Positions 41,751-60,920 of a stretch of DNA of 64,000 bases are shown one piece after another. A program made the position numbers and the translations under genes. Source of the DNA: a virus; the IMG/VR virus record IMGVR_UViG_3300008108_000067, positions 26,890 to 90,889 of that record. One strand, 5' to 3'. Every line of letters starts with the position of its first letter. The stretch's first letter is position 1. The notes beneath the pieces are model-generated. The model was not told the DNA's origin and did not search any database. It saw only the letters and a program-made list of their open reading frames with translations.

Positions 41751-41753
41751 AAG

Positions 41754-41834
41754 TGCTCTCGGTGAGACTCGAACTCACAAGCCTTGCGGCAGCAGTTTTT
41801 GAGACTGCCATGTATACCATTCCATCACAAGAGC
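41754..41834 (-). tRNA. tRNA-Leu (anticodon CAA)
   Basis: Class II. Acceptor GCTCTTG/CGAGAGC, anticodon stem GCAGT/ACTGC with loop CTCAAAA, variable arm GCCGCAAGGC, T-loop TTCGAGT. Confidence 0.95.
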
Positions 41835-41871: not shown

Positions 41872-42098
41872 TGTAGTACAGCGGGAAAGGTGTTGTCCTG
41901 CAATCGGGTGATGAGTAGTTGCAACTCTTATCTGTGTATCGTCGTTATTCATCCTCAACTCAATGGAGTTGTTATCGGATATTTTTCTGCACGACCACCC
42001 CTATACATCGTCGTTATTCATCCTAACCCCAGGGGGTTTTCATCAGACGCCTTTCCATACGACCACTAACCGGCTAAGAGCCGTCCTGCTGTACTACA
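41872..42098 (-). ncRNA. Large structured RNA with two tandem covarying domains
   Basis: 227 nt, no ORF. Closed by a 15-bp stem with one mismatch (TGTAGTACAGC.GGA with TCC.GCTGTACTACA). Just inside is a CGGCT-CTT-AGCCG hairpin. Then two tandem domains, 42007-42066 and 41938-41998, each closed by GTCGT/ACGAC and sharing the end AGGATGAATAACGACGAT. Their inner helices differ by a compensatory change (AACTC/GAGTT versus AACCC/GGGTT). It follows tRNA-Met copy 2 without a gap. No known family recognised; GOLLD-type RNAs are a precedent for large RNAs in phage tRNA arrays. Confidence 0.7.
41938..42066 (-). repeat. Two tandem RNA domains (60-61 nt each)
   Basis: Copies at 41938-41998 and 42007-42066 separated by 8 nt. 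Identical first 8 and last 18 nt; the middle is diverged but keeps helices. See the enclosing RNA. Confidence 0.9.
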
Positions 42099-42169
42099 TG
42101 GCTCGCTTGGGAGTCGAACCCAACTTTCTAGGTTATGATCCTAGCGTGACACCAGTTCACTTGCCAGCT
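42099..42169 (-). tRNA. tRNA with CAT anticodon (Met or Ile2), copy 2, imperfect acceptor
   Basis: Anticodon stem CTAGG/CCTAG with loop ATCATAA, T-stem TTGGG/CCCAA with loop TTCGACT, D-arm GTGAACTGGTGTCAC. The acceptor pairs at only five of seven positions and U8 is missing, so it may be decaying or odd. The 227-nt RNA starts right after it. Confidence 0.7.
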
Positions 42170-42217
42170 ACTGAAATTCTACACCTTGCCATATATTCAA
42201 TGATTTCCTTATTTTCA

Positions 42218-42246
42218 AGTATAATCAATGCTTCTTCTAATGTCAA
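42218..42246 (-). promoter_or_regulatory. Sigma70-like promoter TTGACA-N17-TATACT
   Basis: -35 at 42241-42246, -10 at 42218-42223, minus strand, 49 nt before tRNA-Met copy 2. Would drive that tRNA, the 227-nt RNA and the Leu and Pro tRNAs. Confidence 0.82.
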
Positions 42247-42278
42247 GTATTTAATTACCATAATATTCTCGTGTTGTA

Positions 42279-42364
42279 AAACATAACGACAGGACTTACG
42301 ACATAAGACATTCCATTCTTTCTGTTCGCCTACTACCAGTGGGTTGGTGGTTATCGTTATGTTT
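42279..42364 (-). ncRNA. Structured non-tRNA element closed by 11-bp stem
   Basis: 86 nt with perfect closing stem AAACATAACGA/TCGTTATGTTT. Inside are ACCA/TGGT, ACAG/CTGT and CTTA-TGTCG-TAAG. Shares a GGT.GYAGG..GAACAG-like string with the element at 40035. Between tRNA-Gly(TCC) and the promoter. Unknown role. Confidence 0.5.
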
Positions 42365-53748: not shown

Positions 53749-53785
53749 TGTTTACTCCAACAAAATGTAAACACTAACCGTTAAG

Positions 53786-54124
53786 TGGACCTGAGGGGAA
53801 TCGAACCCCTGTCCGAGATTGCTTCCTACTAAATGTTTATGTGTGTAGTCAGTTATTTGAATTCATTCAGTTCTCATTAACTAACAAACGTAAACTGAAT
53901 ATAGAACCGAAGTATCACCTTGAATACGGTTCCTATCAAGGCTATACCACATAAATGAACAAATTAACCCTATGCGGTAATCTCAGATTAATTCGTCAGG
54001 CTGCAATTAAGCAGCGAGGGCTAAAGTATAGTTGCCAGTTAGATTTTTTGGTCTGTTTTACTCGTCTTACCAAACGAGACACAAAACTTAATCATCCACA
54101 CCCCGTCGAAACCAGGACAGGCCC
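53786..54124 (-). ncRNA. ssrA: tmRNA (transfer-messenger RNA)
   Basis: 339 nt. The 5' end GGGCCTG pairs with 3' CAGGTCC (7 bp), followed by CTGGTTTCGACGGGG and, at the 3' end, T-arm AGGGGTTCGATTCCCCT, the tRNA-like domain with discriminator A. Between them is a mRNA-like part: GGC AAC TAT ACT TTA GCC CTC GCT GCT TAA encodes the tag GNYTLALAA. The tag end ALAA is the universal degradation signal, and a leading Gly is known from Bacteroidota and relatives. It rescues stalled ribosomes and tags their products. Driven by a consensus promoter at 54151. Confidence 0.95.
54007..54036 (-). other. tmRNA tag reading frame
   Basis: Codons for GNYTLALAA plus TAA, inside the tmRNA. Resume codon GGC is inferred by position and from tags in other bacteria. 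Confidence 0.85.
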
Positions 54125-59873: not shown

Positions 59874-60920
59874 TTAAATTCCGTTAGGTGTCATTGACCA
59901 TGTAATATCTTCTACATCAGTTTCATTCAATATAATTGAATTAACGTCTTTTTGAAAATCGTTTAAATTATCCAACTCAAATAATGTTTTCTTATAAACA
60001 TATTTAAAAACACCAACCTGTGCCAACACATCTGCTTTGTTAATGATTAAATCTGTAACGCCGTTGATGTTCGTTGCTTGAATTACACCATCCAAATCCA
60101 ACCATCTAATTTTTCTCTTACGTCCCGTGGTTGCGCCAAACTCACCACCAATCTCTTGAATCTTTTGTAAAATAGAATCATTTTCATCTTGAAAGGTAGT
60201 TTTAAATCCTGAATAGGTTTCATACGCTTTCATTATACCAAAAATGTGTCTAAGTTTTTTTGGTGGAATACCATTTAAACAAGCTGCGCCTACGGTGCAA
60301 TGGGACGATGTTACGTATGGGTAATCTCCCCAATCAATATCAATTTGAAATCCTTGTGCACCCTCACACAAAATTCGTAATGGGGTAGAATTTACATGTA
60401 AAAAGTTGTACAATGGGGTAGAATTTACATGTAAAAAGTTGTACAAATCAATAATTTCATATGGTAAATCCGTACTGTTATATTTGACTAATTCGGAAAT
60501 CCGGGTACCAGTACGGGCATACTTATCACGATATGTTGGTCCAATACCTTGTCTAGTAGTTCCAATCTTGGTATCTGTACCATCTTCTTCGATGTGTTTA
60601 TTGGTGGTAACGTGTACACGTTTATCTATATAAACTTTACCGGTAAATCCCAAACTCCGCAACATATCTAGTTCTTCATATAGTTTCTGTATGTTTACGA
60701 CACAACCAGGACCAATGATACTAGGAATTCCATATAAAATTCCAATCGGAACTTGGTGCGTAACAACTTTCTGACCATTGTGATAAACGGTATGTCCTGC
60801 GTTTGCTCCACCATTGTATCGCAAAACAACATCATAATTTTTTGCAAGATGATGTGCAACTTTACCCTTACCCGTGTCACCTGCTTGTAAATCTACAATT
60901 ACGTCTGCGTAACCAATCAT
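59874..60920 (-). CDS. purA: Adenylosuccinate synthetase (PurA family) with 11-residue internal duplication
   Basis: 348 residues (337 without the duplication), near archaeal-type PurA length. P-loop AGDTGKGKVAHHL (about 13-25) keeps the catalytic Asp of PurA; other signs are NGGANAGHTVYHNGQKVVTH, IGTTRQGIGPTYRDKYAR, ILCEGAQGFQIDIDWGDYPY and GATTGRKRKIRWLDLDGVIQ. It makes adenylosuccinate from IMP, aspartate and GTP. An exact 33-bp tandem repeat (60379-60446) duplicates YNFLHVNSTPL in a likely loop, in frame, so the enzyme might survive. Relation to PurZ is considered in findings. GAGG box before the ATG. Confidence 0.92.
   Translation of the reverse strand: MIGYADVIVDLQAGDTGKGKVAHHLAKNYDVVLRYNGGANAGHTVYHNGQKVVTHQVPIGILYGIPSIIGPGCVVNIQKLYEELDMLRSLGFTGKVYIDKRVHVTTNKHIEEDGTDTKIGTTRQGIGPTYRDKYARTGTRISELVKYNSTDLPYEIIDLYNFLHVNSTPLYNFLHVNSTPLRILCEGAQGFQIDIDWGDYPYVTSSHCTVGAACLNGIPPKKLRHIFGIMKAYETYSGFKTTFQDENDSILQKIQEIGGEFGATTGRKRKIRWLDLDGVIQATNINGVTDLIINKADVLAQVGVFKYVYKKTLFELDNLNDFQKDVNSIILNETDVEDITWSMTPNGI
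60379..60446. repeat. Exact 33-bp tandem duplication inside purA
   Basis: 60380-60412 repeated exactly at 60413-60445. In frame; gives YNFLHVNSTPL twice. Seen directly. Confidence 0.97.

Follow-up and report, generated by a model that had tools for sequence, protein, structure and literature searches.

The window, i.e. the whole stretch of 64,000 nucleotides analysed here, was taken from a 90,889-base virus record whose genes include a phage terminase and baseplate genes. An adenylosuccinate synthetase-like protein is encoded at 59874-60920 on the minus strand, with PHROG 1211 (2-amino variant, PurZ-like) as its best match, and the phage DNA may, judging from this gene, carry 2-aminoadenine in place of adenine. 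The minus strand also holds an array of 27 tRNA genes and a tmRNA; the latter, at 53785-54124 on this strand, is a phage tmRNA with the tag GNYTLALAA, and blastn against the named phages gave no match to it. The element described here lies in the last third of this array. The features of the region are given below in 5' to 3' order on the minus strand, with helices named as in the predicted fold; L003 and L008 are homologous variants introduced further on.

42098-42170, minus strand: tRNA-Met(CAT) (ARAGORN; Rfam tRNA model, 38.2 bits), directly upstream of the RNA element
41872..42098, minus strand: whole RNA unit, 5' end at about 42098 and 3' end at about 41872, a conserved unit closed by stem P1
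42088..42097, minus strand: 5' strand of P1, GTAGTACAGC; 10 pairs, 4 with compensatory changes
42071..42083, minus strand: hairpin P2, CGGCT-CTT-AGCCG; CUU loop invariant
42010..42063, minus strand: P3 domain, with P3 GUCGU/ACGAC, P3b CGUCU/GGAUG and P3c AACCC/GGGUU
42050..42056, minus strand: 5' strand of the likely pseudoknot PK1, GGAAAGG
41996..42000, minus strand: 5' strand of P5, GGGUG, pairing with CACCC
41941..41995, minus strand: P3 domain, second copy, occupying the place of hairpin P6; in the window and L003 only, among the variants listed
41910..41932, minus strand: hairpin P7 with the palindromic apex AGUUGCAACU; apex invariant
41906..41910, minus strand: 3' strand of P5, CACCC, pairing with GGGUG
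41891..41900, minus strand: unpaired CAGGACAACA, identical in 8 of 9 variants, with one change in L008
41884..41890, minus strand: 3' strand of PK1, CCUUUCC; one compensatory pair and six invariant pairs
41873..41882, minus strand: 3' strand of P1, GCTGTACTAC, pairing with the 5' strand; a C-to-T change in L003 restores pair 4
41753-41834, minus strand: tRNA-Leu(CAA), the array gene on the other side of the element from tRNA-Met(CAT)

The tRNA-Met(CAT) gene is itself weak, its 38.2 bits being accompanied by two mismatches in the acceptor stem, and its decay is possible. The element starts directly at the 3' end of this gene, as had been noticed earlier with the strand left unstated; this is true on the minus strand. 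The RNA was assigned to the minus strand because the adjoining tRNA-Met(CAT) is a minus-strand gene, and covariance model R2 matches it at 41873-42097 with 214 bits. Pair cells of the minus-strand core include 20 G-U against 1 A-C, counts which fix this strand as that of the RNA. No conserved reading frame was found, indels are of many lengths and invariance falls mostly at unpaired positions, in agreement with the earlier view that no ORF explains the region.

Homologues were searched by scanning IMG/VR for conserved words (seven DNA patterns), and the matches were confirmed by a covariance model; a terminase search of IMG/VR and a scan of genome contigs were also run. At least 15 further IMG/VR contigs carry the element, which together with the window represent at least 9 distinct variants: that of the window (shared by L001, L002 and L007), L003, L004 (same as L005), L008, L009, L014 (same as L036 and L071), L152, L170 and L347 (same as L349). 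Members beyond these may exist. All variants come from a single type of phage tRNA array; their lowest core identity is 72% and their RNA lengths are about 193-270 nt, with 193 nt in L347. Their carriers are a group of lake-type phages with the element between tRNA genes: all of the 15 other element-bearing contigs listed have tRNA arrays, and the element runs in the same direction as the array. Other pattern matches were discarded, being noise under model R1 or lacking the combination of downstream CTTTCC and GANAACA; L006 was a chance match to the first pattern only.

The distribution is narrow: among the matches listed, every contig with the element is from a phage and has a large tRNA array. 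It was not matched by blastn in 50,697 named phages, and covariance searches of 75 terminase relatives did not find it, an absence informative only for G004, G017 and G045, because the contigs of most of the larger relatives examined carry no tRNA. Flavobacterium phage immuto and Microcystis phage Mel-JY01, which by terminase are the nearest named relatives (about 53% identity), gave no credible match to the element.

Comparison with known families was equally negative within its range. Scanning the element against Rfam 15 by cmscan at E up to 10 gave no credible match: the best within the element was RefA1 (10.9 bits against a gathering score of 94, E = 8.3), and a Tymo_tRNA-like match (22 bits, gathering 40) overlapped mainly tRNA-Met. 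No family matched the homologues at gathering score. We take the short words GGAAAG and GAUGAAU, picked out by eye, to be in common with bacterial RNase P RNA, models of which did not match the element at E up to 10; similarly, ACACCUUUCC may resemble the 3' end of 16S rRNA. The covariance search and Rfam comparison suggested in the earlier note thus returned homologues with covarying stems and no credible Rfam match, and its failure to recognise a known family was borne out.

The conservation of the fold was evaluated on nine variants by more than one alignment. The hand-built core alignment, from which variable loops were removed and which leans towards the proposed structure, has standard pairs in 98.4% of its pair cells and compensatory double changes in 18 of 50 pairs. 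None of 500 shuffles reached these values, and when partners were slid by 1-3 columns only 0-3 compensatory pairs were left. A MAFFT alignment fitted to no structure still showed 14 pairs with compensatory changes; RNAalifold, as an independent prediction on this unfitted alignment, gave 16 of 55 pairs as compensatory and by itself recovered P1, P2, P3, P3b and P7. By parsimony on the tree, at least 74 substitutions took place in paired columns, several pairs having changed two or three times. Compensatory support comes mostly from P1, P2, P3c and P7, while for P3 it consists of wobble changes only; P3b and P3c covary, with up to three standard pair types per pair. The clearest case, and a recent one, is L003, identical to the window over all 119 bases of the 3' flank: three bases of its P1 5' strand are altered, and the 3' strand differs at one base alone, the C-to-T change which restores pair 4; the other two altered pairs become U-G and G-U. 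Little can be drawn from the folding energy of the single sequence (z = -2.16 on the minus strand, 5 of 200 shuffles being equally good, and z = -3.13 on the plus strand), and the case depends on the homologues. On these grounds we are almost certain that the element is a selected structured RNA of its own, as had been proposed for this part of the tRNA array.

The predicted fold is a multibranch structure closed by P1, which contains P2, the P3-P3b-P3c domain, and P5 with P6 and P7. The closing stem had been described as 15 bp with one mismatch, and corresponds to an inverted repeat at 41872-41886/42084-42098 (15 nt, 93% complementary). The stem of P2 appears as CGGCT/AGCCG, CGAGT/ACTCG, CGTAT/ATACG or CGGGT/ACCCG among the homologues, that of P7 as GATAAG/CTTATC, GATAGG/CCTATC, GATGCG/CGCATC or GATGAA/TTCATC; the apex of P7 is invariant in the 8 variants that have this hairpin, in contrast to the freely varying stem beneath. 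P5 is found as GGGUG/CACCC, GGGUG/CACCU and GGCGU/AUGCC, the last form being that of L347, where P7 is missing, and depending on the hand alignment. A likely pseudoknot, PK1, joins the internal loop of P3 with the 3' end; the related variants L152, L170 and L347 have GGAAAGA with a matching UCUUUCC. It is graded as likely, not proven, because it shows one compensatory pair and competes with a three-pair extension of P1. A further helix, UGUAU/AUACA, outside P5 would have added another pseudoknot, of HDV-like topology; it was dropped, since it is not kept in L152, L170 and L347. In the core, 33 of 38 unpaired positions are invariant, as compared with 57 of 100 paired ones. This unpaired core may be regarded as a functional surface, more than a hairpin would offer, and a constant core with a free periphery would, by analogy, be the pattern of large functional RNAs.

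Two adjacent domains with common ends had been reported in the window, and both indeed contain GTGGTCGT and AGGATGAATAACGACGAT, read on the minus strand, in copies at 41938 and 42007, 69 nt apart. The paired change between their inner helices (AACCC/GGGTT in one, AACTC/GAGTT in the other) and the swap to wobble pairs in the second helix (CGTCT/GGATG) are likewise present. As a definition of the element the tandem arrangement did not hold, the second copy being confined to the window lineage and L003, where it repeats the P3 domain but lacks the GGAAAGG strand; in the remaining seven variants a different hairpin occupies this site, such as ACCCGACGAUUUCGGGGU in L014. Because the inner helix of the second copy, CAACUC/GAGUUG, resembles that of L008, the two domains of the window probably derive from two alleles, and the covariation between them is probably in part that of two alleles of one hairpin. 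The decisive covariation is that between phages, and the duplication is a lineage-specific elaboration of the periphery; other peripheral insertions are seen in L008, L009 and L014.

Conservation begins and ends at P1, and downstream too the sequence diverges right after this stem. Where flanks are common, as between L003 and the window on the 3' side and between L003 and L014 on the 5' side, the opposite flank differs each time. A tRNA ends directly before the RNA in the window and in L004; in the other variants the upstream neighbour is one of six ORFs without evident mutual similarity. The TAA stop of this ORF begins at base 2 of the RNA, within P1, in L003, L008, L014 and L170, where three different kinds of ORF are involved, and the stop begins one base before the RNA in L347 and six bases before it in L009. 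Variation of the neighbours on both sides shows that the element does not belong to one gene as its leader or trailer. Its place within the array ranges from near the start in L008 to that seen in the window, and in most variants it is downstream of tRNA-Gly(tcc).

A consensus promoter had also been claimed. The site, TTGACA-17-TATACT, is present at 42246-42218, but two such sites were found against 1.5 +- 1.3 in shuffles. It lies inside a short ORF (42157-42261) and other variants differ in upstream sequence, on which grounds it was rejected as a promoter belonging to the element. A check around the element found no conserved promoter and no terminator.

Two more non-coding stretches were noted in this neighbourhood. 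Directly 3' of the element is a second conserved one of about 85 nt, GGGCATACATG...GTCTTGRTGCTCAACATGCC, with two predicted hairpins and folding no better than shuffles, which is also present in L455, a relative without the element. Its positions in four contigs are:

L009, 7457-7545
L152, 6924-7012, minus strand
L170, 6959-7044
L455, 1784-1858

The other, at 42278-42364 on the minus strand of the window, between tRNA-Gly(tcc) and a short ORF, spans about 87 nt and is closed by AAACATAACGA/TCGTTATGTTT; it is 94% conserved in L009, folds with a z of about -2.2 to -2.4, and may represent a further small array RNA.

The RNA is optional or accessory, since collinear tRNA arrays of related phages lack it. 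In L454, whose terminase is 89% identical, the array Ala-Val-Gly(tcc)-Leu(caa)-Pro is collinear and the gap between Gly and Leu measures 2 nt; in L456 the Gly and Leu tRNAs are 3 nt apart. In L455, which keeps Gly(tcc), the conserved downstream stretch and Thr(tgt), the intervening space is filled by about 310 nt of different non-coding sequence. This sequence (1474-1783), without a long ORF and at the array site that holds the element in other phages, has no Rfam match above threshold and a weak match to a group II intron D1-D4 fragment (12.7 bits, E = 2.2). A group I intron (60.1 bits) is present in L456 at 2150-2336, with a tRNA-Lys gene following after about 400 nt.

We propose a stand-alone non-coding RNA gene on the minus strand, which would be co-transcribed with the tRNA array; a discrete RNA bounded by P1 would be freed from the transcript, most likely by tRNA-type nuclease processing. 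Exact ends at the terminal helix in an apparently polycistronic tRNA transcript, and the lack of a conserved promoter or a detected terminator, suggest that the tRNA-maturing nucleases of the host cut it out. PK1 would then lock the fold, and about 30 nearly invariant unpaired bases would be displayed. Near-invariance of GUUAGUG, the CUU loop and CAGGACAACA suggests that they contact something, be it a protein, the ribosome, a tRNA or a second molecule of the RNA itself, through which the molecule would act in trans during infection; the invariant palindromic apex of P7 would permit self-pairing. A trans-acting RNA in the niche of GOLLD and ROOL is given a probability of about 0.45, with the fact that related phages manage without the element counted against it.

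Rather unlikely, in our estimate, is a cis role in processing or stability of the array precursor, that is a folded spacer which blocks exonucleases or presents nuclease sites and has no role after release. The element is always in the array, on the same strand, and abuts the ends of upstream genes without a gap, and a processing or stability spacer effective at any position of the array would fit too; nevertheless, neighbours differ on both sides between variants, the invariance of the unpaired core and the likely pseudoknot far exceed the needs of a spacer, and collinear arrays without this RNA leave only 2-3 nt between the Gly(tcc) and Leu(caa) tRNAs.

The same presence or absence in collinear arrays, with precise boundaries and differing upstream sequence, could be left by a mobile or intron-derived ribozyme remnant moving between array positions, and the L456 intron shows such an RNA in the tRNA region of a related phage. 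Group I and II introns are compact pseudoknotted RNAs of phage tRNA regions with a similar pattern of presence and absence, whereas the element sits between genes and not inside one. No match of their models to it was obtained with E values up to 10, whereas a scan of this kind does pick up the L456 intron; no protein is encoded, no target duplication was noticed, and the location is mostly downstream of tRNA-Gly(tcc), all of which makes such an origin decidedly unlikely.

A regulatory RNA of the array transcript, such as a processive antitermination RNA, would suit a long array on the same strand, and antitermination RNAs exist in phages (the HK022 put sites); these act near the promoter, while the position of the element in the array is variable, and the proposal is very improbable. 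Chance structure in an intergenic region, with a single-sequence z of only -2.16 in its favour, is refuted by covariation across nine variants and is practically negligible.

For the trans-acting RNA, the closest comparisons are two RNAs of the same niche. GOLLD is a structured non-coding phage RNA of unknown function, often found near tRNA islands, with one studied member downstream of a Met-tRNA and many members larger than 800 nt; ROOL, pseudoknotted and also of unknown function, is a phage or prophage RNA often near tRNA islands, and both form homo-oligomers held partly by kissing loops (PMC12286853). Like GOLLD, the element sits in a phage tRNA array, downstream of tRNA-Met in the window, but it is about 193-270 nt long, against many GOLLD members over 800 nt with a conserved 3' half. 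With ROOL it shares the array location and a likely pseudoknot, and it is smaller, with a simpler secondary structure. Neither Rfam model matched the element at E up to 10 or the homologues at gathering score. GOLLD is a homo-oligomeric RNA cage, while here only the palindromic apex of P7 hints at self-pairing, and an oligomer principle like that of GOLLD and ROOL may by analogy apply. The element is a new RNA family in the niche of these two, matching neither by model or length. That it represents a new class, a trans-acting phage RNA, catalytic or assembling from RNA only, engaged in the takeover of translation with the phage tRNAs and tmRNA, is unlikely.

GOLLD and ROOL, both at home in phage tRNA arrays, are among the strangest RNAs known. 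The question of why phages put structured RNAs among their tRNAs is easier to address with the present RNA, which shares that niche but is unrelated and much smaller, has a defined fold and exact ends, and is naturally absent from sister phages.
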